A DNA stretch of 64,000 nt from Hyphomonas sp. GTDB lineage: Bacteria; Pseudomonadota; Alphaproteobacteria; Caulobacterales; Hyphomonadaceae. The first letter of the stretch is position 1. Each line of letters opens with the position of its first letter. Location of the stretch: assembly GCA_017792365.1 (NCBI GenBank), contig CP051229.1:2728001-2792000 (forward strand), read 5' to 3'. A program made the translations under genes and the position numbers. This document shows, piece by piece, positions 10,701 through 56,411 of this stretch. Under the pieces are notes generated by a model. It had not been told where the DNA came from. It saw nothing but the letters and a program-made list of their open reading frames with translations, and ran no database searches.

Positions 10701-10787
10701 TTAACCCGTCGATGAGGTCGGTAAACGGAAGGTTAACGACGCTGCGTCTGGCTTAATGCCCTCTTAAGCAAAGCGGTCGAATTTGCC
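10701..10787. promoter_or_regulatory. CtrA box cluster between fliO-fliP and flgB-flgC-fliE
   Basis: Four TTAA elements lie in 67 bases between the divergent flagellar operons: TTAACC at 10701, TTAAC at 10733, and a perfect full site TTAA-N7-TTAA at 10753-10767 (spacer tgccctc). The full site matches the CtrA consensus known from Caulobacter. It is followed by TCGAATTTGCC (10777-10787), also found upstream of fliL. The flgB Shine-Dalgarno begins five bases later, so the flgB leader must be short. Confidence 0.7.
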
Positions 10788-10806
10788 TATCAGAGGAGCT
10801 GCGACG

Positions 10807-11226
10807 ATGGTCGATCCGACGAATATGTCGATGTTTTCATTGCTGAAGGCGCGCCTGGAGATGCTGGGCGAGCGCCAGAAGGTGATCGCCGGCAACGTCG
10901 CGAACGTTTCGACGCCGGGCTATGTGCCGCAGGACGTCGACACAGAGGCGTTCGCGAAGTCAATGAGCGCCCAAATGCGCAGCGGCTCAGCTGGGGACGG
11001 CCTGGCGACAACCAACGCCAGGCACATCAGCTCCGGGGGCGGGGGAACGGCGAGTTTCTCCGTTCGACCCAGCCCCGATTCCGAGACCACGCTGGATGGA
11101 AACAGTGTCGTGGTCGAGGAGCAGATGATGAAGATTGCCGAAACCCGAATGGATTTCGAGACAATGGTGGGCCTTTACCAGAAGAGTCTGGGCCTGCTGC
11201 GAATGGCCTCTCGCAGCCCGCGCTGA
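10807..11226 (+). CDS. flgB: Flagellar proximal rod protein FlgB
   Basis: Proximal rod subunit. 139 residues from ATG 10807, chosen because AGAGGAG (10792-10798) lies eight bases upstream; the frame is open six codons further but without a ribosome site. The rod signature MLGERQKVIAGNVANVSTPG (about 19-38) and the C-terminal KIAETRMDFETMVGLYQKSL helix are both present. First gene of flgB-flgC-fliE, preceded directly by the CtrA box cluster. Confidence 0.94.
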   Translation: MVDPTNMSMFSLLKARLEMLGERQKVIAGNVANVSTPGYVPQDVDTEAFAKSMSAQMRSGSAGDGLATTNARHISSGGGGTASFSVRPSPDSETTLDGNSVVVEEQMMKIAETRMDFETMVGLYQKSLGLLRMASRSPR

Positions 11227-11263
11227 GACTGGCACAGGCTGACGCACAAACCAGGAGCAGGAC

Positions 11264-11680
11264 ATGTCCTCCGATCTAGTTTCCGCAATGTCGACGGCCG
11301 CAAGCGGTCTGCGCGCCCAGACGGTGCGCATCCGGGTATCCGCCGAGAACATCGCCAACGCGGATTCGACCGCGCAGACGCCCGGCGAGGATCCCTACCG
11401 GAGGAAGATCCCGACCTTCCAGTCGTTCGTCGACAGGGAAACCGGGGCGGGGCAGGTGCGCGTCAGCGGCGTCTATGCCGACCAGTCGCCCTTCACTCAG
11501 AAGTACGATCCCGCCCACCCTGCAGCCGACGAGCGGGGCTATGTGATGACCTCCAACGTCTCGTCGCTGGTGGAGATGGCGGATCTCAGGGAAGCGCAGC
11601 GGGCCTATGAGGCCAACCTCAACGTTGTCGACGCCAGTCGTGCGATGATGATGGGTATCGTCCAGATCCTGAAAGCCTGA
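11264..11680 (+). CDS. flgC: Flagellar proximal rod protein FlgC
   Basis: Proximal rod subunit of 138 residues, the standard length. N-terminal rod signature ASGLRAQTVRIRVSAENIAN (about 13-32); central YRRKIPTFQSFVDRETG; C-terminal MADLREAQRAYEANLNVVDA. A good Shine-Dalgarno (CAGGAG) precedes the ATG. It follows flgB by 37 bases and precedes fliE by 13 bases, so all three are likely cotranscribed. Confidence 0.95.
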   Translation: MSSDLVSAMSTAASGLRAQTVRIRVSAENIANADSTAQTPGEDPYRRKIPTFQSFVDRETGAGQVRVSGVYADQSPFTQKYDPAHPAADERGYVMTSNVSSLVEMADLREAQRAYEANLNVVDASRAMMMGIVQILKA

Positions 11681-11693
11681 GGGAGAGTAAGCG

Positions 11694-12002
11694 ATGTCTG
11701 ACATCGGGATCGCAGCGGCAAAAGCGTATGCTCAGGCGGCGAGCGCCGCCGCCAGGCCGGACATCGCCAAGCCTGCTGAGCAGGACGATGTGTTTGGCGA
11801 CATGCTCGGCAAGGCTATTTCATCGGTGCAGAAGGCTGGAACGACGGCCGAAAGCAACATCACGAACGCAGCGCTGGGCCAGGCTGACCTCGTCGATGTG
11901 GTTACCGCTGTCGCCGCTGCAGAAGCCACGCTGGAAACCGTCGTGTCGGTCAGGGATTCCGTGATCCGCGCCTACCAGGAAATCATGAGGATGCCGATCT
12001 AG
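11694..12002 (+). CDS. fliE: Flagellar hook-basal body adaptor FliE
   Basis: Connects the MS ring to the proximal rod. 102 residues, normal length. The C-terminal half contains the conserved FliE stretch: AGTTAESNITNAALGQADLV, DVVTAVAAAEATLETVVSVR, and DSVIRAYQEIMRMPI at the terminus. The start follows GAGGGAGAG by a few bases. Last gene of the flgB-flgC-fliE unit; about 150 bases of noncoding DNA separate it from the Tad genes. Confidence 0.94.
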   Translation: MSDIGIAAAKAYAQAASAAARPDIAKPAEQDDVFGDMLGKAISSVQKAGTTAESNITNAALGQADLVDVVTAVAAAEATLETVVSVRDSVIRAYQEIMRMPI

Positions 12003-12152
12003 GCGAACACTCACGGCAATGGATATGGCGCCCCGCCTAACAGTCTTGGCTAACGCTTTCTAAATACCCGGCCTGAATTGCTCGTCGGACAAGAGTACAG
12101 AATTAAGTCTTCTTCCGTATGGTCGCGTCAAAATACCAAGGCGGATCATACA

Positions 12153-12692
12153 ATGAGGTTGAAGAAAAACCTCTCCAAGTCGCAGGACGGCAGCACGCTG
12201 GTCGAGTTCGCGCTACTCGCCCCCGTCTTCTTCCTTTTGATCACCGGAATGGTCGAGTTCGTTCTCTACCATTACAAGCTCTATGCGCTCAATCACGTCG
12301 TCTACGAGGCGACGCGGAACCTGCAGACGGGTGAGGTCCAGAACTGGACCGACGGCGATCCGGCCACGACCAATGATATGTGGGTGGCCTTCAACAACGA
12401 GGTCTGCACCCACTCCGGCGCCATGCTGGATTGCGAAAACCTGACCTTCGACGTCCGCAATTTCGATACGATCAGCGCCGTCACGTACCCGCCCGCGACC
12501 TTCGACGAACACGGAAATCCGACCAACTTCGAGTTCGATCCCGGCGGCCCGAAATCATACTCGGTGGTCCGCGCCTCGATGAAGCACCAGTTCATCACGC
12601 CGATGCTGCGGGAAATCATGGGTCTCGCCGACGGCGCGCCTGCGATCATGAATGCTTATTCTATCGTGAGAAACGAGCCATGGTCCGGATAA
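12153..12692 (+). CDS. TadE-like pseudopilin (first copy)
   Basis: 179-residue TadE-family protein. After a basic start (MRLKKNLSKSQ) comes the type IV-like prepilin processing region DGSTLVEFALLAPVFFLLIT, with the conserved Glu five residues into the hydrophobic segment, then one transmembrane helix and an extracytoplasmic domain with two cysteines (VCTHSGAMLDCENL). TadE/F pseudopilins act in Tad (Flp) pilus assembly. ATG 12153 was preferred over an upstream ATG at 12078 because it directly precedes the processing region. It overlaps the second copy by 13 bases. Confidence 0.82.
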   Translation: MRLKKNLSKSQDGSTLVEFALLAPVFFLLITGMVEFVLYHYKLYALNHVVYEATRNLQTGEVQNWTDGDPATTNDMWVAFNNEVCTHSGAMLDCENLTFDVRNFDTISAVTYPPATFDEHGNPTNFEFDPGGPKSYSVVRASMKHQFITPMLREIMGLADGAPAIMNAYSIVRNEPWSG

Positions 12693-13273
12693 TTCAGCGC
12701 ACTCAACGCCGGCGCCTGCGCAGGGACCGCAAAGGTATTGCAGCGGTCGAGTTTGCGCTCATTGCTCCTGCGCTGATCGTTCTCTTCATGGGAGTCATCG
12801 AGCTCACATTCCGTTTCCATGCGAGCCAGGAAGCGACGCGGTACGTACACCAGGCGGCTGATCTGATCGCGCGCGAACACGGGATGACCACCAACGATCT
12901 GGACGCGATCTATGACGCGTCCGTGCACATGATGAAGCCGCTGGATACGACCTCAAATCTCGACATGGACGTCCTGGCGGTCGCGCTTGAGGACGATGGC
13001 GACGGAGGCATCGACAAGCGGGTGCTTTGGCGCAGGACCGCAGGAGCGGGGGTTCCTTTTGATCTCAACGACGTCGACGGTCTGGGCCAGGTCGATGAAA
13101 GCGTTGTGCGTGTCGGCATCCGCTACAAATACACCAGTCCGATATCGAGCATGTTCGGGGGACCGGACGTCAATTTCGTGCGCGAGTCGTTCTCTCGGCC
13201 GCGAGCGCTTCGCTACATCAAGATGGACGGCCAGGAAGATCACAACGGCGCTACGGCTACGTTTGGGAATTAG
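12680..13273 (+). CDS. TadE/TadF-like pseudopilin (second copy)
   Basis: 197 residues. A basic N terminus (RTQRRRLRRDRKG) precedes the processing region IAAVEFALIAPALIVLFMGV and a single transmembrane segment. The extracytoplasmic part begins HASQEATRYVHQAADLIARE. The ATG at 12680 overlaps the first TadE gene; the frame extends farther upstream only in antisense-like sequence. Its sequence is clearly diverged from the first copy, as is normal for TadE/TadF pairs. Followed 35 bases later by the TadG gene. Confidence 0.82.
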   Translation: MVRIIQRTQRRRLRRDRKGIAAVEFALIAPALIVLFMGVIELTFRFHASQEATRYVHQAADLIAREHGMTTNDLDAIYDASVHMMKPLDTTSNLDMDVLAVALEDDGDGGIDKRVLWRRTAGAGVPFDLNDVDGLGQVDESVVRVGIRYKYTSPISSMFGGPDVNFVRESFSRPRALRYIKMDGQEDHNGATATFGN

Positions 13274-13308
13274 TGGGGGAGCCTCGCTCTGCGGGCTGAG
13301 ATTCGACG

Positions 13309-15196
13309 ATGACCAAGTTTCACGCAGCAAGTTCCGCCGGGTGGGCCAACCGCGCACGGCGATTCATCCGCGATCGGCGCGGCGCATTCGCCATGCAGTT
13401 CGGGCTGATGCTGATACCGATCGTCCTTTGTGTTGGCCTGGCGATCGACGGCGGCCGCGTATTCCTTGCAAGGTTCAATCTCGCGTCCGCGCTGGATGCA
13501 GCTGCGCTCGCAATGGGATCGACCGTCGATCCCAACGTGGACCTCAACGCGATGGCGGTGAGTTTCGTCCACGAGAACTTCAGGATGGCGGACACGGGAA
13601 CCGTGGTTCTCGCCTCGACGCCCGAAACCATCACGCCGACGACTGAACTGATCACGCTCCGGGGCACAGTTCCGGTCCAGACCTACTTCATGCCGTTGGC
13701 CGGCATCTCGAGCGTCAATGTGACTGCGGAGAGCGTGGTCCGGCGCGGTGGGGCGGACGTGGAAGTCGCGATGGTGCTGGACACGACAGGGTCGATGTCG
13801 GGCTCGCGGATCGCGGACCTGAAGGCCGCCGCCAAAGAACTCGTGAGCATCGTCGTGAACGATGTGCAGACGCCGTACTATTCCAAGGTCGCGGTGATCC
13901 CCTACGCGAACTCCGTCTATCTGGGCGCAAGCGCCGACACGGTTCGCGGCGCGCCGCCTGCCGGGTGGACATCACCGCCGGCGTGCTGCCGGCGCCGCCG
14001 AAGCTGATGTACGACGCGACCAACCAGTCTCGCGTGCGAATCTATTCGACCAATCACGGTCTGAACAACAACGACATCATCAGGATCGATGGCGTCCTCG
14101 GGATGACGCAGCTCAACGGTCAGACCTACAAGGTCAAGAATTCCGAATCGAACCGGTTCCGGATTCAGTATGACGGCGGCCCCAACGATGGTGACTGGGT
14201 GAACTCCAGCAGTTGGCCGTCCTACATCGCCGGCGGCGCGATCACCGTGCTGAGCGGCGGGAGCTGTGGTGCGAACTGCGAAGCGATCCTGACCGCGCCA
14301 AACCACGGATTTTCGAACGGAGACTGGATCCGCATCGAGAATGCGACCGGCTGGGGCGAAATGAACACGACCGGCGATACGGCGTGGGAGGTCAAGGACG
14401 CGACCCTCCATACGTTCAGGCTGAAGAACTCGGACGGTTCGGGCTGGGGCGTTTATACCGGTAGCGGCAAGGCATACTGCACGACCGTCGGATGCAGATT
14501 TCTGCGCTACACTACGGCGAGCGGAAACACGCGCGTGCGCGAAATCAGCCAGTGCGTGACCGAGCGCGTCGGGTCGGAGCAATACACGAGCGCCTCATAC
14601 GCGACCAAGGGCGTTGGCTACCACTACCCGCTGGCACCGGAAACCTCGCCTGCTCAAGCGACAATCAGCTTGTGCCCCTGACGGCGAACAAGACGACGCT
14701 GAACACCGAGATTGATGATCTGACCACCACTGGATCGACTGCCGGTCACATCGGGCTCGCCTGGGGCTATTACGCGCTGGCTCCGAGCTGGAACACGCTT
14801 TGGCCCAACGCGTCTCAGCATGCCGGCGAAATGGGCGCCACCGACCTCGTGAAGGCGATGGTCATGATGACCGACGGCGAGTTCAACACCGGATACTGCA
14901 AGGGCGTCATCGCCAACGACTCCGGCTACGGAAACAACAACGACCAGATCAGCTGCAATGCGGAGAACGGCGGGTTCTATGCGCAGGCGACAAGTCTGTG
15001 CAACGCGATCAAGGCCGACGGGATCCACCTTTATACGGTTGGTTTCGCGATTGCCGCTGGATCGTCAGAAGATAATTTCCTCAAGGGATGTGCGACGTCC
15101 AACGAGCACTACTATCTCGCCTCGAACGGCGCGCAGCTGACAGCCGCGTTCAAGTCGATCGCGAAATCGATCTCACTGCTGCGCCTGGCGAAGTAG
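13309..15196 (+). CDS. TadG-like VWA protein with two inserted NHG/FCCH-like modules (two frameshifts)
   Basis: Three overlapping open frames join into one 629-residue protein when one base is restored near 13960-13965 and another near 14635-14640. Residues 20-50 form the TadG N-terminal membrane segment (RGAFAMQFGLMLIPIVLCVG). The VWA domain begins with the metal site VLDTTGSMSGS (about 158-168) and its second loop MMTDGEFNTGYC lies about 360 residues later. Between them are two repeated modules, NHGLNNNDIIRIDG and NHGFSNGDWIRIEN, resembling the FCCH-type modules seen in phage tail proteins. The final region GIHLYTVGFAIA is a normal VWA end. Likely envelope-anchored Tad pilus or adhesion factor. 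Confidence 0.78.
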
Positions 15197-15228
15197 GTTT
15201 CACCGAAGACAGCGATGGCTCGCCGCGT

Positions 15229-16320
15229 CTACTGGTCGGCGAGCCGCATCCGCTCCGACACTGCCCGGGCCGAGGGGTCGTCGATCGCGCCGGCGGCGGC
15301 AAAGCGCTGAAGCGAGAGGCGCCATAGCCATTTGGCGGAGCCGAGCCTTCCGTCGGCTGCGGCATGGTCGCCAGCCAGACCCGTCAGTTGGGCCAGCTCG
15401 ACAGGCTTCGTTTCTTTCGCGTCATTGAATTGCTTGCGCGTCTCCGTCAGCAAACGATCCGCGTCCTTCAGCCTGTTCTCAGCGATCGCCTGGCGGATCT
15501 CCGCCATCACCGAATCGCCGGCTTCTGCCGGTTTGTCCGGCTCGGTTTGCGGTGCGGGGCGTTCAGGAGGGGGCTTGGCGGGTTGAGGCGGCGCTGGCGC
15601 GTCGTAGGCCGGTGGCGCTTCGGTCGCCGCAGGAATCGAAGCAACAGGAGCGGGGAAGGGTCGAGAAGCCACTGGCGCGTCCAAGGAAGCTTCAGCGGCG
15701 GGCGCCGGCGGCGTAGAGGCGGCCGCGGGTGTCGCCGCTGGGGCTGGCTTGGCTGGCGCCTCCGGTTTGGCGCTTTCCTTGACCGGCTCCGGCTCAGGCG
15801 ATCGGGGCGCAGGGGCAGGGGCCGATTCCTTCTCCTCAGTCGCGCCAGACGGCGGTTGGGGTGGTTGGGAGGCTGGCTTGGACGGTGGTTGGCCAAGGCC
15901 GTTCGAACGGAACGGTTCGGGGGGAGGCTCTGAAGGTTGCGCAGAGGGCGTCACAGGGTGGCCGCCGGTCATGCCTGCTGGCCGCAATCCTTCCGGGAAC
16001 CTGACGTCCTGAGGGTTTCCTCGCGCCAGCTCCTCGGCCTTCTCAGTGTAGAATTGTTCGGCCTGCTTCAATAGCCGCGCGCGCCGCTCTTCTTCCTCCA
16101 CGCGCTTCGCCTTTGCCTTGGGGCGCGGGCCGAGCGCGTGCACCATTGTGACGGCGCCGACAATCAGGGCGACCAGACCGCCCACGAATAACCAGATCGA
16201 CTGCCCGGGCGTGGGAGGAAACATGCCCTCCACCGATCCACGGCTCGTCCATGCCAGATAGCCGCCGACAGCGGCCAGGACAGCTCCCGCGAGCGCCTCG
16301 ATAACGCGATAAACCATCAC
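15229..16320 (-). CDS. Pro/Ala-rich two-helix membrane protein, function unknown
   Basis: 363 residues. Two N-terminal transmembrane helices (VIEALAGAVLAAVGGYLAW; SIWLFVGGLVALIVGAV) precede a basic/acidic helical stretch (AKAKRVEEEERRARLLKQAE). A long low-complexity Pro/Ala/Glu region follows (about 120-265), and then a compact C-terminal helical domain (IRQAIAENRLKDADRLLTE to the end). The rightward frames in this stretch are artefacts of its skewed composition. It lies leftward between tadG and fliQ, with its start facing the fliQ promoter. No family recognised. The C-terminal domain recalls TPR-like helices, but this is weak. Confidence 0.7.
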   Translation of the reverse strand: MMVYRVIEALAGAVLAAVGGYLAWTSRGSVEGMFPPTPGQSIWLFVGGLVALIVGAVTMVHALGPRPKAKAKRVEEEERRARLLKQAEQFYTEKAEELARGNPQDVRFPEGLRPAGMTGGHPVTPSAQPSEPPPEPFRSNGLGQPPSKPASQPPQPPSGATEEKESAPAPAPRSPEPEPVKESAKPEAPAKPAPAATPAAASTPPAPAAEASLDAPVASRPFPAPVASIPAATEAPPAYDAPAPPQPAKPPPERPAPQTEPDKPAEAGDSVMAEIRQAIAENRLKDADRLLTETRKQFNDAKETKPVELAQLTGLAGDHAAADGRLGSAKWLWRLSLQRFAAAGAIDDPSARAVSERMRLADQ

Positions 16321-16478
16321 ACCGTCCCGTTCGGCCTCGTTGATGTGGGCCCATGAAAGCGACGATTAATCCAAGCGCTGGATTTAACAACAGCCATCGC
16401 CTTCGAGGCGGCGGTCGCTACCGCCAAGAGCCCGGTAATTGCTCACCTTTTCCGACCGGCGCCTGTCAGCACGGTTTG

Positions 16479-16504
16479 TTAACCTCTTGTTTGCCATAGT
16501 TAAC
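16479..16504. promoter_or_regulatory. fliQ upstream region with paired TTAAC half-sites
   Basis: TTAACC at 16479-16484 and GTTAAC at 16499-16504 lie 31-56 bases upstream of the fliQ ATG, in the gap between fliQ and the divergent gene at 15229-16320. CtrA activates the fliQ promoter in Caulobacter through TTAA-type sites. The spacing here (21 bases between half-sites) is not the canonical seven-base gap, so the assignment rests on the half-site match and gene context. Confidence 0.45.
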
Positions 16505-16534
16505 GACCGAACCCTTCATTCCAAAGGTGCTGCC

Positions 16535-16798
16535 ATGACGGGCGGAGAAATTCTCGACCTTGGGCGCGATGCCTTGTGGGCGACGGTGCTGATATCCGCG
16601 CCCGTGATGATCACCGGCATGGTGGTGGGTCTGGTGATCGCGTTCTTTCAGGCGCTGACGCAGGTGCAGGAGATGACGCTGGTCTTCGTGCCGAAGATCA
16701 TCGCGATCTTCATCGCCATGGTGATTTTCCTCCCGCTCATGGGCGCGATTCTCGGGGGGTTCGCTCAAGACATATTCACACGCATCGCGTCGTATTAG
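16535..16798 (+). CDS. fliQ: Flagellar type III export gate protein FliQ
   Basis: Small export-gate subunit with two transmembrane hairpins. ATG 16535 gives 87 residues, the normal size (88-90); the frame is open 32 codons upstream through the promoter. The conserved start MTGGEILDLGRDALWATVLI, the linker QALTQVQEMTLVFVPKI and the second helix AIFIAMVIFLPLMGAIL are all present. The next gene, fliR, starts 18 bases after its stop. Confidence 0.94.
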   Translation: MTGGEILDLGRDALWATVLISAPVMITGMVVGLVIAFFQALTQVQEMTLVFVPKIIAIFIAMVIFLPLMGAILGGFAQDIFTRIASY

Positions 16799-16816
16799 CA
16801 GGGAGCCGGTTGAGCG

Positions 16817-17578
16817 TTGGATCAGCTCACCCAATACGCGTGGATCGGCGTCCTGCTGTTCTCCAGGCTTGGGGCGGTGTTGATGCTGGCGCCTGGCTGG
16901 GGCGAGCAGGCGACGCCGACCACGATCCGGCTTGCGGCCGCCCTTCTGGCGACCATGGCGCTGGCGGCCGGCCTTGCGCCGTCCGCGCCGCCTTTGCCCG
17001 GCAACATCGCCGAGGCGGTGCCGCTGATCTTCATGGAGGTAGTGACGGGTCTGATCCTCGGCGCAGGCGTTCGGCTTCTGATGAGCGCAACTCAGGTAGC
17101 CGGCGCGATCGTGGGCATGGGAACCAGCCTCTCGTTCGCTCAACAGGTCGACCCCATCGTCAACCAGCAGTCGGCGCTGTTCTCTTCGTTCCTGTCCCTG
17201 ATCGCGGTCGTCCTTGTGATGTCCATCGGCCTGCACCGCGTGATGATTGCGGCGGCCGCGGAGAGCTATGCGGTCTTTCCCCCGGGAGGGCTTCCGCCGC
17301 TTGGCGATGTCTCGATGTTCTTCATCGACACCGTCTCCAACGCCTTCAGGCTGGGCGTCCAGATCGCTGCCCCGGTCTTGGTCTTCTCGATCATCTTCAA
17401 CGCCTCACTCGGCATGGCCTCGAGGCTTATTCCACAGGTTCAGATGTTCCTGGTCGCCATGCCGATGACGGTAATGCTGGGAACGGCGGTTTTTGCGCTG
17501 GGCCTCGGTGGGGGACTCATGGTCTGGCTGAGCGCGATGGAAACGCAGGCGAACTACTTCATCGGCGGGCAGAACTAG
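16817..17578 (+). CDS. fliR: Flagellar type III export gate protein FliR
   Basis: 253-residue polytopic export-gate component. The predicted start is TTG 16817 (DQLTQYAWIGVLLFSRLGAV), preceded at a distance by AGGGAG; no nearby ATG exists in frame. Typical FliR elements are PGWGEQATPTTIRLAAALLA, SLSFAQQVDPIVNQQSALFS, FIDTVSNAFRLGVQIAAPVL, and MASRLIPQVQMFLVAMPMT near the end. Its stop codon is directly abutted by the flhB ATG. Confidence 0.93.
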   Translation: MDQLTQYAWIGVLLFSRLGAVLMLAPGWGEQATPTTIRLAAALLATMALAAGLAPSAPPLPGNIAEAVPLIFMEVVTGLILGAGVRLLMSATQVAGAIVGMGTSLSFAQQVDPIVNQQSALFSSFLSLIAVVLVMSIGLHRVMIAAAAESYAVFPPGGLPPLGDVSMFFIDTVSNAFRLGVQIAAPVLVFSIIFNASLGMASRLIPQVQMFLVAMPMTVMLGTAVFALGLGGGLMVWLSAMETQANYFIGGQN

Positions 17579-18652
17579 ATGGCCGAAGAGCAGGACAAGA
17601 GCCAGAAGACCGAGGCGCCGACTCCCAAGCGCCTGGAGGAGGCGCGCAAGAAGGGCGACATCGCCAAGAGCCAGGATGTGCCGATCTGGTTCGTACTGCT
17701 GGCGGCGGCTGGCATTCTTGCGGCGTCCGGCCCGATACTTGGCTCAATGGCTGCCCCGCTGGCCCGAATCCTTGATCATCCCCATGCGTTCGAGCTGACG
17801 AATGGCGGCGCGCAGGTCCTGGCCGCTCAGGTTCTGCTCGCCGTCGGGGGACCCGTCGCGATCATCTTCGGCATTCTGGCCGCGTCCTCCTTCCTTGGGC
17901 ACCTGATCCAGCATCGACCGCTGTGGACGCTCCACAAGGTCAAGCCGGAAATGTCGAAGCTGGATCCGGTGAAGGGGCTGGGACGCATTTTCGGCGCTCA
18001 GGGCTGGATGAACCTGTTGAAGGCGGCGCTGAAGATGCTCGCAGTGTGCGCCGCGATGCTGTTTGCGGTCTGGCCGGAGCGCAATGCGCTGTCTGAGGCG
18101 GGGCTTCTGGAGCCCGAATTCCTTGTCGCCCTGATACATTCATTGGTGGGACGGTTGTTCATCGCCGCACTGGTTGTCGTGGGGATCGTCGCCGCCATCG
18201 ATTTCCTCTGGCAGCGTCAGTCATTCATGTCCCGAATGAAGATGTCGCGGCGCGATGTACGCGATGAGACCAAGCAGTCCGAAGGCGATCCGCAGATCCG
18301 CGCCCGCCTGCGCGCGATCCGTCAGGAACGCGCGCGACGGCGCATGATGGCCTCGGTCAAGGACGCCACCGTCGTGATCACCAACCCGACGCACTATTCT
18401 GTCGCCTTGAGATACGATCCCGACCGTGATGCGGCACCGGTCTGCCTCGCCAAGGGCGTCGACGAGCTAGCGCTGCGGATTCGCCAGAAGGCGCGGGACG
18501 AGGGGGTGCCGCTTGTGGAAAACGTGCCGCTGGCGCGCGCCCTGTACGCCGGCGTCGAGATCGATGAGCCGGTTCCCAAGGAGCATTTCGAGGCGGTCGC
18601 AAAGGTGATCGGATTCGTCTTCAATACCGCGCGCAATCGCAGAGCCCATTAA
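17579..18652 (+). CDS. flhB: Flagellar export switch protein FlhB
   Basis: Switches export from rod/hook to filament substrates by self-cleavage. 357 residues. The N terminus KSQKTEAPTPKRLEEARKKG is diagnostic. Four transmembrane segments follow, then a cytoplasmic domain with the autocleavage site ITNPTHYSVALRYD (Asn-Pro-Thr-His intact, about 266-269) and PVCLAKGVDELALRIRQKAR. It starts at the base after the fliR stop, completing the fliQ-fliR-flhB export operon. cckA begins 68 bases downstream on the same strand. Confidence 0.96.
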   Translation: MAEEQDKSQKTEAPTPKRLEEARKKGDIAKSQDVPIWFVLLAAAGILAASGPILGSMAAPLARILDHPHAFELTNGGAQVLAAQVLLAVGGPVAIIFGILAASSFLGHLIQHRPLWTLHKVKPEMSKLDPVKGLGRIFGAQGWMNLLKAALKMLAVCAAMLFAVWPERNALSEAGLLEPEFLVALIHSLVGRLFIAALVVVGIVAAIDFLWQRQSFMSRMKMSRRDVRDETKQSEGDPQIRARLRAIRQERARRRMMASVKDATVVITNPTHYSVALRYDPDRDAAPVCLAKGVDELALRIRQKARDEGVPLVENVPLARALYAGVEIDEPVPKEHFEAVAKVIGFVFNTARNRRAH

Positions 18653-23238: not shown

Positions 23239-23416
23239 GTGGCGTTTGATGCAGGCGTTCAGCTGCGGCTGCATTCGCTTGGCGCCAAGCCTTCTGCGGC
23301 CTATATCCGGCGCTGAACGGGGAATGGACTGATTAGCGACCTGTCTTGGAGGCGCTGAGGCGCCCTTGGGGCGTCAAAGCCTTTCCCACGGCCAAACCGA
23401 CGGAGCCTTGCGCCTG

Positions 23417-26093
23417 ATGCCGAACACATCAAAGCCCGGATCGATGGGGGTCAACGAGGTTCGCTCGACCTTCCTCGACTACTTTGCCGCGGCTGGCCAC
23501 AAGGTTGTGCCATCGGCTCCGCTTGTGCCGCAGGGCGATGCGACCCTGCTTTTCACCAACGCCGGCATGGTGCCGTTCAAGAACATCTTCACTGGCGTGG
23601 AGAAACCGGCGTCGCCCACAGCGGCGTCATCGCAGAAATGCGTGCGCGCAGGCGGTAAGCACAACGATCTCGACAATGTCGGGTACACGGCGCGCCACCA
23701 CACCTTCTTCGAGATGCTCGGAAATTTCTCCTTCGGCGACTACTTCAAGGCCGAAGCGATCGAGCATGCACGGAAACTGGTCACGGGACCGTTCGGTCTT
23801 CCCGCCGACAGGCTGCTGGTCACTGTCTATGCGGAGGATACCGAGGCCGCTGCGCTGTGGAAGAAAATCGCGGGCCTTCCCGAAGACCGCATCATCCCGA
23901 TCGCAACCTCGGACAATTTCTGGTCAATGGGCGACACCGGTCCGTGCGGACCTTGCTCGGAAATCTTCTTCGATCACGGGCCGCATATCGCGGGCGGCCC
24001 GCCCGGCTCGCCGGATGAGGACGGCGACCGCTTCATCGAGATCTGGAATCTCGTCTTCATGCAGTTCGACCAGCGCGCCGACGGATCGCGCATCGAATTG
24101 CCGAAGCCCTCGATCGACACCGGTATGGGCCTGGAGCGGATTTCGGCCATCCTGCAGGGCGTTCACAACAATTACGATATCGATCTCTTCAGGAACCTGA
24201 TCTCCGCGGCGGAGGCCGTTTACGGCCAGCGCGCGGTTGATGACAGGCTGGCCTCGTTCCGAGTGATCGCCGACCATCTGCGCGCGACGTCATTCCTCAT
24301 CGCGGACGGTGTGACGCCCAGCAATGAAGGCAGGGGATATGTGCTTCGGCGCATCATGCGTCGCGCCATGCGCCACGGACACATCCTGGGCGCGCGCGAG
24401 CCGCTGATGCACAAACTCGTCCCGGCGCTGGTCGGCGAAATGGGCGATGCCTACCCGGAGCTCGGGCGGGCGCAGAAGGCGATCGAGAGCGCGCTGAGTC
24501 AGGAGGAAGCGAGCTTCCAGCGAACGCTGGGTCGCGGCCTGCAACTGCTTGACGACGCGACTGCAGGTCTCAAGGCGGGCGGTGAACTGGCAGGCGAGAC
24601 CGCGTTCAAGCTCTATGACACCTATGGCTTCCCGCTGGACCTGACGCAGGATGTTCTGCGGGCGCGGGATCTCACCGTGGATGAGGCAGGCTTCAACGCG
24701 GCCATGGCCGAACAGAAGTCCCGCTCTCAGGACAGCTGGAAGGGGGCCGGCGACGGCGCCTCCGATGAGGTCTGGTTCTCGGTTCGCGACGCTTCGGGCG
24801 CAACCAACTTCCATGGGTATGATCTCGCAGAGACGTCTGGCGTCCTGAAGGCGATCCTCAAGGACGGATCGCGTGTCGAGAATCTGAAGCAAGGCGAAGC
24901 GGCGGAGCTCGTTTTTGATCAGACACCCTTCTATGCGGAGTCGGGCGGACAGGCCGGGGATCGCGGAGAGATCCTGTTTGCGGGCGGGGGCCGCTTCCGG
25001 GTGGATGATGTCCAGAAACGCGCCGGCGATGTCTTTACGCACGTCGGCGAGATGGTCGCTGGATCGGTCTCCACCGGCAGCGTAGCCGAGTTGAAGATCG
25101 ACGGTGCGGCGCGCCAAGGTCCGCGCCAATCATTCCGCAACGCACCTTCTGCATGCGGCGCTGCGAAATACCTTGGGCGAGCACGTCACGCAGAAGGGTT
25201 CGCTGGTCGAAGCGGATTACTTCCGGTTCGACTTCTCGCACAACGCGCCCGTGACGCAGGCTCAGCTCGATGCGATCGAAGACGAAGTGAATGCGGTCAT
25301 ACGTCAGAACGCCGAGGCGCAGACGCGCGAAATGGCGCCGGATGATGCGGTGAAGGCCGGTGCGCTCGCGCTATTCGGTGAAAAGTATGGCGACAGCGTC
25401 CGCGTTCTCCGGCTCGGTAATTCTGTCAGCAAGCATGACGCGCCGTATTCGGTAGAATTGTGTGGCGGCACGCACGTCGCCCGCACGGGCGACATTGCGA
25501 TGTTCGTCATCACCTCCGAGGGCGGGGTCTCGTCGGGCGTCCGCCGGATTGAGGGCGCCACGGGAGCGGCGGCCTTCGCGTTCCTCAAGGAAAGAGCCAA
25601 TTCGGCCAGATCGATCGCTGATCAGCTGAAGACGCCTGTCAGTGAAGTCTCAGCACGCGTCACCGCACTGGCCGAGCAGAGAAAGAAGCTCGAACAGGAG
25701 CTGGCGGAAGCGCGCCGCAAGCTCGCCATGTCCGGCGGCGCGGGCGAAGCCTCCGACAAGCCCGAGGAAATCAACGGCGTGAAGCTGCTGGCGAAGCTGG
25801 CCGATGGCCTGCCGGCCAAGGATCTCAAGCCGATGGCCGACGATGCAAAGGCCAAGCTCGGCTCAGGCGTTGCCGTGCTCGTCGCAGTGAACGACGGCAA
25901 GGCCGCTGTCGTCGTGGGCGTCACTGACGACCTCACCAGCCGGTTCAACGCGGTGGAGCTCGTCAAGGCGGCGTCTGCTGCAGTTGGGGGCAAGGGCGGC
26001 GGCGGCAGGCCAGACCTCGCGCAGGCGGGCGGGCCGGACGGAGCCAAAGCGAAGGACGCGGTGGAGGCTGTGCGTCAGGCGCTTGCGCAATAG
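23417..26093 (+). CDS. alaS: Alanyl-tRNA synthetase (one frameshift)
   Basis: Charges tRNA-Ala; essential. Two frames join to 892 residues if two bases (a CG unit) are restored near 25104-25110, giving the expected [20 protein letters not shown]. Class II motifs are at the N terminus ([35 protein letters not shown]). The editing domain has [11 protein letters not shown] and [15 protein letters not shown] with its zinc-binding His/Cys residues, and the C-terminal Gly-rich DHH-associated part ends [19 protein letters not shown] 23417 is chosen; ATG 23444 (MGVNEVRST) is the alternative. Confidence 0.94.
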
Positions 26094-41109: not shown

Positions 41110-43406
41110 CTAGCCTTTCATGTAGCCCGGGAGCCAGCCTTCCCAGGCTTCGCGCAGGCGCGAAAGGGGAAAGTCGACGATGCCCTTGTTGGGACCGTCG
41201 TCGTGTACGGTTAGTACCGGATCTTCGATGAACGCGCCGGCGAACGGGCTGACAGACACGGCGACGCCCAACTCTTGCGCGAGCTTGCCCGCCTTCTCGC
41301 CGTAACTTGGTGGAACTGCGACAAGGTAGCGTCCCGGCGTTTCGTCGAAGATCAGGGCGAGGCCGCTCTTGCCCGCCGGGGCATTGCCGGTCGCGACAAA
41401 CATCGCGCCGTCGACATCGAGCTCCAGTCCGCATCCGCTGGCGAGGACCATCTCGGCCGCTGCGCAGGCGATGCCGCCGTCGGAGACGTCGTGCACTGCG
41501 CTGGCCAGGCCGTCGGTGATGAGCTTGCGGACGAAGCCGGCATTTCGCTTCTCGGCCTGAAGATCGATCGTCGGCGCTGATCCGGCGTCTGCGCCATCCA
41601 GCCCGAGCCATTCGCGGGCATAGAGCGAGGCTCCCATATGGCCTCTGGTCTCGCCGACCACGATCAGCAAGTCGCCCGGCTGTGCGCCGCGCAGCGTCGC
41701 AATCTTCGAGACATCCTCGATCAGCCCGATGCCGCCGACAACCGGGGTGGGCGGAATACCGACGCCGTCGGTCTCATTGTAGAGTGAGACGTTGCCGCTC
41801 ACGACTGGGAAGTCGAGTTCGCGGCAGGCTTCGGCCATGCCTTCGATGGCCTTGACGATCACGCCCATCGTTGGCGGCTTTTCCGGATTACCGAAATTGA
41901 GGTTGTCGGTGATCGCGATCGGCGTGGCGCCGACGGACGAGAGGTTGCGGTAAGCTTCGGCCACGACCGCCTTGCCGCCTTCGTACGGATCGGCGGCGAC
42001 ATAGTGCGGGTTGCAGTCGGAGCAGATTGCGAGCGCCTTGTTGGTCCCGTGAATGCGCACGATGGCCGCATCGCCGGATGACTGCGAACTGTCGATCGTG
42101 TCGCCCATGACGTGGCGGTCGTACTGTTCCCAAATCCAGCGCTTGGACGCCATGTCGGGCGAGGACATCAGCTTCAGCAGGACGTCGCCGTAGTCTTCGA
42201 GTTCGGGGAACTTCGTGATGTCGAGCGGCGGCGCTGTCTTGGGCTCAACCCATGGCCGGTCGTAGTTTGGCGCATCGTCGGCCAGCGGCGGTACGGGGAT
42301 GTCGCAGACGACCTGGCCGTGCTGCTTCAGCACCATGCGGCCAGTGTCGGTGGTGTGGCCGATGATTTCTGCGTCCAGGTCCCACTTGTCGAAGATCGCC
42401 TTGGCGACATGTTCCTGACCCGGCTTGAGGATGATCAGCATGCGCTCCTGCGACTCTGACAGCATGATCTCGTAGGCGGTCATACCGTCTTCGCGCTGGG
42501 GCACCTTGTCGAGATCCATCTCGATGCCGATGCCGCCCTTGTCGGCGATCTCGACCGAGGAGGAGGTGAGGCCGGCCGCGCCCATGTCTGGATCGACTGG
42601 ATGGCGTCGGTCTGCATCAGCTCAAGGCAGGCTTCGATGAGCAGCTTTTCGGTGAACGGGTCGCCGACCTGTACCGTGGGGCGCTTCTCTTCATCGCCTT
42701 CGGAGAATTCGGCGGACGCCATCGTGGCGCCGTGGATGCCGTCGCGGCCGGTCTTGGAGCCGACGTAGAAGATTGCGAGGCCCGGCTCGGCGCCGCGCGA
42801 ATAGAAGATCTTGTCCTGATCGGCGAGGCCGACCGCCATCGCGTTGACGAGGATGTTGCCGTTATAGCCCTTGTGGAATTGAGTTTCGCCCGCGACCGTG
42901 GGGACGCCGACGCAATTGCCGTAGCCCGCGATGCCGCCCACCACGCCGGCGACCAGTGAACGGGTCTTGGGGTGATCCGGCTCGCCGAAGCGCAGGGCGT
43001 TCACCAGCGCGATCGGTCGCGCGCCCATGGTGAAGACATCGCGCAGGATGCCGCCGACGCCGGTTGCCGCGCCCTGATAGGGCTCGATGTAGGACGGGTG
43101 GTTGTGGCTCTCCATCTTGAAGATGCAGGCCTGGCCGTCGCCGATGTCGATGACCCCGGCATTCTCCCCCGGGCCCTGAATGACCCGGTCATTCTTGGTG
43201 GGAAACTTCCCCAGATGTCGACGGGTGGATTTGTAGGAGCAGTGCTCGGACCACATGACCGAGAAGACGCCCAGTTCGACGAGGTTGGGCTGTCGCCCCA
43301 GCCGGTCGAGGATGATCTGGAATTCAGCGGCGTTGATGCCGTGTTCCGCGCCGGCCTTGGCGTCCTGCGGAGCGAGAAGGGGGGAGAGGTCGGGCGTCTG
43401 GCTCAT
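41110..43406 (-). CDS. purL: Phosphoribosylformylglycinamidine synthase II PurL (one frameshift)
   Basis: Purine biosynthesis step 4, the ATP-dependent amidation subunit. Two frames join to 765 residues if one base is restored near 42588 (joint reading [20 protein letters not shown]). Signatures are [58 protein letters not shown], and in the second half [20 protein letters not shown] and [16 protein letters not shown]. Small-subunit purS/purQ are not in view. Lies upstream of bolA/grxD with a DUF4142 gene between. Confidence 0.95.
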
Positions 43407-50477: not shown

Positions 50478-51778
50478 CTAGATCGCGCCGGAGCGGATCA
50501 GTTCGAGCGCGCGGTCGAGCTGGTAGTCCTCGCCGTCATAGTCCTCCGGCGGCATTTCGTCGGGAACGTGCGGCGCGCGGCGCTCGACGCCCTGGTCGTT
50601 CGCGAGAGCGTTCGGCAGCGCGGCTTCGGAGAAGCGGGCGGCGCGGCGCTCAAGGGCGGCGATATCCTCGTCCGAGAGACGCACGGCGGCGATCTCGTAG
50701 TCGGGCTCGATCCCCGAGCCCTGGATGGCGCGGCCGGCCGGCGTGTAATAGCGCGAGGTGGTGAGGCGGATGGCGCCCTTACCGGGGCCGAGCGGGATCA
50801 CGGTCTGGACCGAACCCTTGCCGAAGCTGGTGACGCCAAGAACCGTTGCGCGCTCGCGGTCCTGCAGGGCGCCGGCGACGATTTCAGCGGCCGAGGCCGA
50901 CCCGTTGTTGATCAAGACTACGGTCGGGACGTTCGGGGCGCGTTTGGCGCGGCGGGCGTTGTAGCGCGCGACGTCTTCGGGGCGGCGTCCGCGGGTGGAG
51001 ACGATTTCGCCGCCATCGAGGAAGCGGGACGAGACTTCGATGGCCTGGTCGAGCAGGCCGCCGGGGTTGTCGCGCAGGTCGATCACGAGGCCCTTCATCG
51101 AGCCGCCCAGTTCGCGGCGGACATCGGCGATGGCTTCATCCAGCGACTCGGCGGTGCGCTCGTTGAAGGCGGAGATGCGGACGTAGCCGACATCGCCTTC
51201 CGCGCGGCTGCGCACGCTGGCCGGACGAATGTTTTCGCGGGTCAGCGTGACGTCGAAGGAATCCTCTCCCTCGCGCACGACGGTGATGGTGAGGTCGGTG
51301 CCGACCGGGCCGCGCATCTCCTTGACCGCGTCTGAAAGCGGCAGGCCGACGATCGAGAGGCCGTTGATCGCGGTGAGGAAGTCGCCCGACTTGATGCCGG
51401 CGCGGCTGGCGGGCGTGTCGTCCATCGCGCCACGACCTTCACGAAGCCGTCCTGCGCGGTCACTTCGATGCCCAGACCGCCATATTCGCCAGAGGTCTGG
51501 ACCTGCATGGCCTGGAAGTCGTCGGGGTTGAGATAGCTTGAGTGCGGGTCGAGCGAGGTCAGCATGCCGTTGATCGACGCTTCGATCGCTTCGGCTTCGT
51601 CGATCTCGACGACGTAATCGGATTCAACTCTCGCTAGGATCTGGGCGAAGAGTTCGAGTTGTCGGTACGTGTCCTTGCGCGGGTCGGGCTGGCCGTTGGT
51701 GAGGGCATAGGCGGAGACCATGATGGTCGTGCCGATAATCCCTGCTGTGACGAGTGGGCCGAGCAACCACTTACGCAT
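50478..51778 (-). CDS. ctpA: Carboxyl-terminal processing protease CtpA (S41; one frameshift)
   Basis: Periplasmic protease with a PDZ domain. The two frames join to 433 residues if one base is restored near 51425-51427 (joint KVVAPMDDTPASRAGIKSGD). Signal anchor WLLGPLVTAGIIGTTIMVSA; N-terminal LTSLDPHSSYLNPDDFQAMQ; PDZ GEYGGLGIEVTAQDG; catalytic Ser in VVLINNGSASAAEIVAGALQ and Lys in GVTSFGKGSVQTVIPL. In its family it matures envelope and cell-wall enzymes. Located just downstream of envC in the conserved rlmH-envC-ctpA string. Confidence 0.93.
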
Positions 51779-54050: not shown

Positions 54051-54231
54051 CGGCAGGCTTGCTCTCTGCAGGGGTGCTGGTCGCCCAATTCCTGTGTCAG
54101 ATCAATCGTCTCTGAGCGGCGTCCAGGCACAGGCAGGCGCGTCGCTGCGATGCACGTTTTGTTCAGTTGACCGGGAGGCGCCGGAATCTAGACCGTCTGC
54201 AACGGATCATTCCACTCAGGAGAGACGGCGT

Positions 54232-56411
54232 ATGGGCAGAAAAGCCTGGCTCGATTCGGCCTGCCTTGCGGTGCTGGCCTGCTCGCTGGCCGGCGCGGCG
54301 TCAGCGCAGGACGCCGTCGAGCAGGCGTCGGCAGCCGACGGTGCCGTCGCCCGCGGACAGGGCGTGCAGGTCTTCGACCGGGGCTTCTTCCAAGTCTACA
54401 ACGCGGTGACCGCGCTGGACATGGTGCAGCGGGTTCCGGGCTTCACCATCGACGATGGCGACGATCGCCGGGGCTTTGGCGCAACGGCCGGCAACGTCCT
54501 GGTCAATGGCGAGCGGCCGAGCTCGAAGACGGCGATCTCCGAGCAGCTGCAACGCATCCCGGCCGACTCCGTCACGCGCATCGAGCTGGTGTCCGGCGCA
54601 TCGAGCGAACTCGACATTCGCGGGCAGACACAGGTGGTGAATGTCGTTCTTGATCGCAGCCAGCGCGCCGACAGTCCGCTGTCGTGGATCCTCGAAGCGC
54701 GCCACATCCAGTATTCCGACCGCATCGGCTACACGGTGCAGGGCACCAAGACCTTCGCGCTGAGCGAGACCGCCAATCTGACGCTGGATCTGCAATTCCC
54801 CAATCTGCACGGGCGGACCGAGAGCATCGAGGCGATCCGCGATCCGTCCGGCCAGCTGATCCAGATTCGCGACAATTTCGGCCAGCCTTCGCAGAACGGC
54901 GTTCAGGGTTCGGGCGCGCGACGGCGCGCGACACGATCAATGCGAACTTCCTTTATAACCCGACATGGGACCAGCTGGGGATCGGCAGCTTCTATACGGC
55001 GCCGGACGGCTCCTTTGATGGCGCGCTGACCGGGCTCTCGGAATTCGAGGACAAGTATAATGCCGAGTTCGGCGGCGACTGGGAGCGCCGGTTCTCGGAC
55101 GCCTGGTCGGTGAAAGTGCTCGGGCTCTATCGCGACTTTGGCGAGGACCAGAGCGATCAATTCGACTTCTTCGGGCCCTCGGGCGCGCTGGTCGGCGAAC
55201 GCAGACAGATGCGCTCAACAGAGGGCGGCGAACGCGTGGGGCGCGGCGTCCTGACCTGGCGGGCGGGGGGCGGCCACACGCTGGAGTTCGGCGGGGAGAC
55301 CGCGTTCAATTTTCTCGATACGGCCTTCGACATCACGTTCGATGCGCAGAACGGCGCTGGGCCGCAGCCCGTGCGGCTGCCGGTGGCGAACGCGCGCGCG
55401 GAGGAGGTGCGCTGGGAAGCCTTCGTGACCGACATCTGGAACGTGACCCCGGCGATCACGCTCGAGACGGGGTTCACCTATGAAGCCTCGACCATCAAGC
55501 AGACCGGCGACGCCCAGAAGGAGCGCGAGCTGTCCTATCCCAAGCCGCGACTGGTCGGCTCGTGGCAGGCCACCGAGAACGATCAATTCCGTCTCAGCAT
55601 CGAACGCGATGTCTCCCAGCTCGACTTCAATGATTTCGCGAGCTCGGTCGACGTGCGCGACGAAAACCAGCAGCTGGGGAATGCCGACCTTGAACCTGAG
55701 AAATCCTGGCAGACGCGACTTGAATGGGACCGGCGCTTCGGGGAACGCGGCGCGCTGACGATTGGCGTTTTCCACGACGAGATCGAGGACGTCGACGACA
55801 CGCTGGCGTTGGCGTTCTGCGACGGCGACGTCTTCGCCAAACCCTTGCGGTCGTGCCTGCTGTTCCCGACGGACCCGCGCGACGTGTTCGATGCGGTCGG
55901 CAATATCGGCGATGGCACGAGCACCGGCGTCGACGTGAGCGCCACGATGCCCTTGGACTGGCTCGGCATTCCGCGCTCGGAGCTGAGACTATCGGGCGAG
56001 TTGCAGGAGACAGAGGTCACCGATCCCGTGACGGGAGAGAAGCGGCGGTTCCGTTTCGCGGAGGACTGGGAATACGAACTCTCCTTCCGCCAGGAATTGC
56101 CCCAGTGGAGTCTGGCGTGGGGTTTCGAGACCGATCAGGAATCGAGCGCCTATGAATATCGGCTGGCCGAGGAGGTGAAACTGATCCGGCAGGGCCACCA
56201 CGTCGATGTCTTCCTCGAGACGACGGCGATCGCGGGCATCACGCTTCGGTTCGGCGTGTCGAACATCACCGCGCCGACGGAATCGCGGGTGCGGACGTTC
56301 TTTGATCCCAACCGCGCCTCGGGCGTCGTCGACGAGGTCTGGACGCGCAAGCAGAAGGGCGGCCCCTATGGCACGCGCGTCTTCTCGGTCCGCGCGTCAG
56401 GCACCTTCTAG
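54232..56411 (+). CDS. TonB-dependent receptor, second copy (frameshifted)
   Basis: Two frames join to 726 residues if one base is restored near 54913-54920 (joint SGATARDTINANFLYNPTWD). ATG 54232 has AGGAG nine bases upstream. Signal peptide ACLAVLACSLAGAASAQ; plug ALDMVQRVPGFTIDDGDDRR, NVLVNGERPSSKT and RIELVSGASSELDIRGQTQV, parallel to the receptor at 28885. The barrel ends in Phe (FSVRASGTF). Its stop overlaps the nadD stop tail-to-tail. It interrupts the conserved rsfS-nadD order. Substrate unknown. Confidence 0.87.

Follow-up and report, generated by a model that had tools for sequence, protein, structure and literature searches.

The gene at positions 13309-15196 of the window (the whole stretch of 64,000 nucleotides of Hyphomonas sp. 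DNA that was analysed) raises the question of what lies between the two halves of its VWA domain and what such a part would do in a pilus protein. The first-pass annotation had taken the gene for a TadG whose VWA metal loops, about 360 residues apart, enclose two FCCH-type repeats akin to phage tail proteins. The following features were determined.

12078-12692 (+): TadE-like minor pilin, likely partner (PF07811 TadE, 9e-12)
12629-13273 (+): second TadE-like minor pilin, likely partner; scanned range, start codon not fixed (PF07811 TadE, 2.6e-11)
13309-15196 (+): TadG/CpaL-type gene in three reading frames (frames, motifs and Pfam; paralogue matches in three pieces)
13309-13941 (+): piece 1, first part of the VWA preceded by a prepilin-like N-terminus (PF13400 Tad, 1.8e-9)
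13780-13800 (+): MIDAS motif 1, DTTGSMS (sequence)
14034-14243 (+): FCCH barrel module 1 (profile match at residues 130-199 of the L001 frame; PF16190 at 14046-14246)
14265-14279 (+): cysteine pair between the modules, numbered C101/C105 in the modelled piece (61 rows: C101 invariant, C105 conserved in at least 90%)
14283-14477 (+): FCCH barrel module 2 (profile match at residues 213-277; PF16190 at 14295-14477; PHROG 584)
14478-14495 (+): second cysteine pair, C172/C177, closing the insert (conserved in at least 90% of 61 rows)
14660-15193 (+): piece 3, second VWA part (PF00092 VWA, 0.0022, under the cut-off)
14864-14887 (+): MIDAS motif 3, MMTDGEFN (sequence)

The Asp codons of DTTGSMS and MMTDGEFN started 364 codons apart, with the frame ignored, and the MIDAS set of DxSxS/T, T and D was complete in the window copy (DTTGSMS, GSTAGHIG and MTDGE). 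The repeat NHGLNNNDIIRIDG was located at 14052-14093 with NRFRI at 14151-14165, and NHGFSNGDWIRIEN at 14301-14342 with HTFRL at 14409-14423; both modules lie whole inside the middle frame compared, 13971-14627. The prepilin N-terminus of the Tad/TadE type was detected in the window copy and also in the paralogue of the same genome (PF13400, 6.1e-9). The VWA scores in Pfam were weak and below the cut-off in the scans of both genes (VWA_2 on piece 1 gave 0.0027), and a strong VWA fold match was obtained with a three-module relative. The assignment to TadG and the wide spacing of the metal loops with two repeats between them were thus confirmed by the N-terminus, the VWA halves, the coordinates, Pfam and PHROG. 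With NCBIfam, only matches far under the cut-off were obtained, and Rfam gave no match at gathering scores in the 64-kb window.

The E1_FCCH family (PF16190) matched the middle frame in two stretches at 1.7e-17, with 63.7 bits against the gathering cut-off of 29.5. The separate scores were 43.6 bits for module 1 and 23.9 bits for module 2, the latter being below the cut-off alone. PHROG 584, a family of major tail proteins, matched as well (1.4e-9), the best stretch being that on module 2. The profile of the inserted segment, searched against PDB sequences, matched 2lzj, an E1 FCCH (6e-7), and 10lj, a phage tail protein (0.0017). Among the first ten matches from the viral model library, two were named as FCCH-containing phage proteins. 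No Pfam match to the adenylation domains or the catalytic cysteine domain of the E1 ubiquitin-activating enzyme was found in the three frames. The modules of the relatives were 22-40% identical to the window piece.

The AlphaFold2 model of the window's own middle frame, calculated with 60 relatives in the input, was barrel-like with a mean pLDDT of 88.6. In the Foldseek search of the PDB with this model, E1 proteins occupied ranks 1-33, followed by the T1 tail tube at rank 34. With VIA-align, whose fold-match rows represent mostly module 1 while module 2 is hardly covered and rests on the profiles, the UBA6 FCCH domain (7pvn) gave a Z of 13.6 (rmsd 1.2, 77 residues) and the T1 tail-tube protein (9l0f) a Z of 10.6 (rmsd 1.8, 82 residues). 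The K1F endosialidase (3ju4) resulted in a Z of 7.9 (rmsd 2.5, 76 residues), which is the level that VIA-align calls common by chance. The model of the three-module relative L035 had a mean pLDDT of 82.0 and a poor middle module (residues 330-402). Its VWA core was best matched by the pilus-tip protein Mfa5 (6tnj; Z 25.3, rmsd 2.4, 203 residues), and the Mfa5-aligned residues, within 131-693, stand on both sides of the insert; SpaC gave a Z of 20.0, and RrgA and S. sanguinis PilB were among the Foldseek rows. The insert in the VWA domain is real and consists largely of two E1_FCCH-type beta-barrel modules. Both the FCCH character of the repeats and their kinship with phage tail proteins, proposed at first from the letters alone, were upheld: the former by Pfam and the UBA6 fold match, and the latter by PHROG 584, phage records and the T1 tail tube. 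The display of the modules on the tip of the VWA fold, suggested in the same annotation, is a conjecture that would have to be squared with the published CpaL model, in which the barrels project away from the MIDAS (PMC12607857).

The paralogue (G000:C1:177782-179674, minus strand) is a single open frame of about 630 amino acids with the same insert and a motif spacing of 364 residues. Pieces 1, 2 and 3 of the window copy were 80, 68-69 and 72-73% identical to it, and the FCCH matches at E up to 1 in the whole genome (3,398,407 bases, one contig) amounted to four modules only, two per TadG copy. Since the unbroken paralogue has the same arrangement and spacing, the insert was not made by the frame breaks. 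The window copy as read could make no full protein. The alaS gene (window 23366-26093, plus strand), which is single-copy in the genome, was also split near 25110, with tRNA-synt_2c in one frame and SAD and DHHA1 in the next. The break of this essential gene is explained most simply as an assembly error, and the breaks in the TadG are therefore probably assembly indels, more likely than decay. The suspicion of a misassembled region thus probably holds for the frame breaks, but not for the insert, which the intact paralogue confirms. A purL-like gene (window 41110-43406, minus strand) also appeared split, its FGAR-AT linker, AIRS and AIRS_C being shared between two frames. A TonB-dependent receptor (54094-56411, plus strand) and an S41 peptidase (50478-51778, minus strand) of the window appeared split over two frames, and a T2SSE ATPase gene (L189/L190, G000:C1:1335556-1336703) was in two frames as well. 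The Viterbi scan for frame breaks (15 stretches) was too noisy to enter any count, since it detected neither of the TadG breaks and marked antisense shadows.

The same insertion was found in related TadGs. The profile built from TadG modules was run on the frames from 186 loci, yielding 119 distinct TadGs with identical segments counted once. Both MIDAS patterns in one frame were necessary for this set, which excludes, for example, L052, L062, L102, L171 and the window copy; the truncated L103 and L109 are also outside it. The numbers of TadGs with 0, 1, 2, 3 and 4 modules were 24, 7, 84, 1 and 3, respectively, proportions which are not frequencies because the set was chosen for its similarity to TadGs that bear modules. 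The corresponding median MIDAS spacings were 191, 268, 354, 444 and 553, and the spacings of the 24 module-less TadGs ranged from 186 to 351. All 190 modules of the 119 TadGs (190/190) were located between MIDAS motifs 1 and 3. Six module-less TadGs were aligned and join where the cassette sits, just after a conserved RG; five of them continue directly into a C-x-x-PGC-like stretch, and the cysteine pair C172/C177 was likewise retained in five of six. Two or more TadG frames were found together in 15 of 80 loci, with different module numbers in 7. A repeat of about 13 residues, ATWRNGxxKxITG, was observed just before the first module, two times in the three-module TadG L010 and three times in the four-module TadG L011.

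In the survey of the order, FCCH matches at E up to 1e-4 were detected in 22 of 120 genomes, 20 of them over the cut-off. In 21 of these 22 genomes, FCCH was present in TadG-like frames with the third MIDAS motif (28 loci, 23 distinct genes), and the first motif was also found in 27 of the 28 loci. The 22nd genome is the window's own, and one further frame, in G344, stands outside the 28 loci. The paralogue search of 41 genomes resulted in module-bearing TadGs in 8, according to the 30 loci examined. The class-wide search, in which up to 4 candidates per genome were scored, gave matches in 92 of 289 genomes; among the matches listed, only those in three genomes of the same order were full-length, and an 870-residue frame of G224 matched the module 1 region. 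Module-bearing TadGs of Rhizobiales were also determined (L067, L070, L075 and L085).

The arrangement corresponds to that of CpaL from C. crescentus (CCNA_0199, WP_010918088.1), in which a pilin-like part (27-147) is followed by a VWA domain (148-203 and 384-626) with two consecutive six-stranded barrels between its halves and a canonical MIDAS (D160, T162, S164, T470, D515) (PMC12607857). The insert of about 180 residues was described there as "two tandem beta-rich domains" which the paper could not identify; the Dali search with this region gave no strong match, and the term FCCH occurs 0 times in the accessible part of that text (PMC12607857). The CpaL of C. vibrioides DSM 9893 (L046) has 626 residues and MIDAS positions that agree with the published numbers, and it matched E1_FCCH at 7.2e-27 in two stretches, so the unnamed barrels of CpaL are FCCH barrels. 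The window gene is a CpaL-type protein, with the pilin-like N-terminus, the barrel-split VWA and the canonical MIDAS common to both; the split by two tandem barrels was detected in the window gene by profiles and model, and in the paralogue by alignment with L046. The architecture is therefore not new, being published for CpaL, and the additions made here are the identity of the modules as FCCH and their variation from 0 to 4 at one site. No paper naming the CpaL-type barrels or telling of none to four copies at one place was found in the literature search. Because Pfam scores CpaL far above the cut-off, public domain databases probably already display E1_FCCH on it. The gene of CpaL is an orphan that lies away from the main pilus cluster (PMC12607857), and no other TadE-type match was found near the paralogue either. 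In contrast, the window copy, whose frame is broken in the assembly, adjoins two TadE-type genes within a flagellar cluster.

The barrel fold and the sequence profile are shared with the FCCH of ubiquitin-activating enzymes, which is likewise an inserted domain within E1. The window protein differs from those enzymes as a predicted extracellular pilus protein with tandem FCCH copies, and no adenylation domain was found in it. The FCCH domains of two E1 subunits were called unique to eukaryotes in the part of PMC11354881 available, whereas relatives were found here in bacteria and phages. The FCCH literature found concerned soybean, Giardia, cotton and immunosenescence, and no paper joining FCCH to the tail tube was found in the literature search. 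The phage tail nozzle and tail tube proteins (tail tubular protein B, T1 9l0f, PHROG 584) share the single-module sequence and fold, but they are virion parts and not pilins, and no Pfam VWA match was found in the four phage proteins scanned. The VWA pilus-tip adhesins Mfa5, SpaC, RrgA and S. sanguinis PilB likewise bear a MIDAS-containing VWA at the pilus tip and belong to different pilus systems; insertions within VWA are present in RrgA and SpaC. The "adaptable tips" of Kil/Tad pili are similar in having a TadE/F/G trio with a large modular TadG that customises the tip, and FCCH occurs 0 times in the available text of that paper (PMC12075869). The idea of the customised tip and the tip model come from these accounts (PMC12075869, PMC13170226).

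We consider the gene to encode, with a probability of roughly 0.6, a TadG/CpaL-type protein of the Tad-pilus tip whose FCCH barrels would extend the tip and engage surfaces, perhaps glycans. The FCCH cassette, inserted in one VWA loop between the first and third MIDAS motifs and closed by conserved cysteines, would make the contact surface at the tip longer and more varied. The barrels would probably bind surface polymers such as glycans, the VWA domain would pass on the retraction force, the module copy number may tune the reach, and the protein may be assembled with the two TadE-like neighbours. Domain identities, insertion site, copy-number variation and the intact paralogue were observed here. 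The tip placement and the surface-sensing role are carried over by analogy from CpaL, which was modelled at the pilus tip with CpaJ and CpaK and proposed as a mechanosensor or surface sensor (PMC12607857). Since the loss of CpaL raised surface adherence in that study (PMC12607857), a simple adhesin is not favoured. The glycan hint comes from the K1F endosialidase in the fold list (Z of only 7.9), the barrel of which binds sialic acid at a polysialic-acid site (PMC12632334). The best fold match was the UBA6 domain mentioned above. The E1 FCCH is not known as a glycan binder.

The contact role of the barrels has to be weighed against a purely mechanical one, in which they bind nothing and serve as passive spacers or force-bearing elements that give the VWA head its geometry and stiffness, as needed for mechanosensing. 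This main rival is possible, though we hold it clearly less probable than binding. It agrees with the variable copy number at a fixed site, with the conserved cysteines at the module borders and with the mechanosensor proposal, and the CpaL model, in which the barrels project away from the MIDAS, also speaks against the contact of the barrels with surfaces (PMC12607857). However, judging from the topology, the barrels would hang from one VWA loop, so added modules need not move the VWA; the divergence of the modules (22-40% identity to the window piece) beyond the needs of a spacer is a weak argument in the same direction. The remaining alternative for the insert, one unrelated beta-rich loop with no separable modules and a repeat likeness arisen by chance, was rejected: it is already refuted by the two Pfam stretches (1.7e-17), the confident barrel model of the window's middle frame, the Z of 13.6 and the relatives with one to four modules, and nothing was found in its favour.

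Two further readings concern the history of the gene and its modules. A true pseudogene, decaying since the intact paralogue suffices, was favoured first, on account of that paralogue (68-80% identical across the three pieces) and two breaks in one gene, and it was displaced once Pfam on overlapping frame pairs showed the alaS split. We regard decay as unlikely: single-copy alaS is broken in the same window, where the purL-like, TonB-dependent receptor and S41 peptidase genes appear broken too, as does the T2SSE gene elsewhere in the genome. The dN/dS values between the copies were 0.12, 0.21 and 0.19 for pieces 1-3 (dS 1.0 to 1.2), and at the columns that six relatives conserve, lone departures numbered 7 for the window copy and 11 for the paralogue, while both copies departed at 38 and neither at 141; the low dN/dS and the 7 lone departures against 11 would also fit very recent decay. 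The other reading is similarly improbable: here the modules would have been acquired recently from genes of phage tails, to act perhaps as decoys or as components shared by phages and pili for the same surface ligand. Relatives of the FCCH module were found at E up to 1 in 22 of 50,697 phage records, including the Pelagibacter phage tail tubular protein B (tail nozzle) and Vibrio phage MZH0603. With the TadG-built profile, four of the eight modules in four phage loci scored 70-80 bits and the other four 16-49; the window's own modules reached 64 and 70. In the tree of 99 modules, which is poorly resolved with its 68 columns, the eight phage modules fell into a loose group that also held the only module of L096 and the first module of each of three four-module TadGs. 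The support of that grouping was only 83/64, one phage clade was not rejected (AU p 0.487), and the direction of exchange cannot be read from 68 columns. A set of 15 second modules formed one supported group (97/85), which argues for old, vertically kept modules in those lineages. The tree was built from modules of at least 48 residues; of the two-module proteins, L001, L002, L046 and every third of the others entered it, and L103 and L109 were left out. The window copy and the paralogue paired in it module by module (100/100, 100/99). A single clade of the first modules was not recovered, although the AU test did not reject it (p 0.33). In the four-module L011, modules 2 and 3 paired (100/73), which suggests their tandem duplication.

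A broader and rather doubtful extension of the tip-protein reading is that the VWA cassette site in TadG tips of Caulobacterales and some Rhizobiales takes, in 0 to 4 tandemly duplicated copies, a barrel family shared with phage tails. Pili and phages might then read cell surfaces with the same module, with the copy number tuning reach or ligand choice, and the same family might have given the E1 FCCH. The candidate for surface sensing in the Caulobacter Tad pilus is CpaL, whose largest extra part was left unnamed in its paper. The naming as FCCH supplies solved templates and phage relatives for comparison, and the natural variants with 0, 1, 3 and 4 barrels allow the role of the insert to be tested directly.

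The TadE-TadE-TadG set was observed inside a flagellar cluster (window 10783-18652), with rod proteins and FliE before it and export genes of the FliQ, FliR and FlhB type after it. No virion gene cluster was found around the window gene, the neighbours being TadE-type and flagellar genes. A third Tad-type protein of 487 amino acids (L187:8350-9813, plus strand; G000:C1:2888349-2889812) had PF13400 as its sole Pfam match, and two further TadE-type matches were detected near it, at 2894027 and 2894527.
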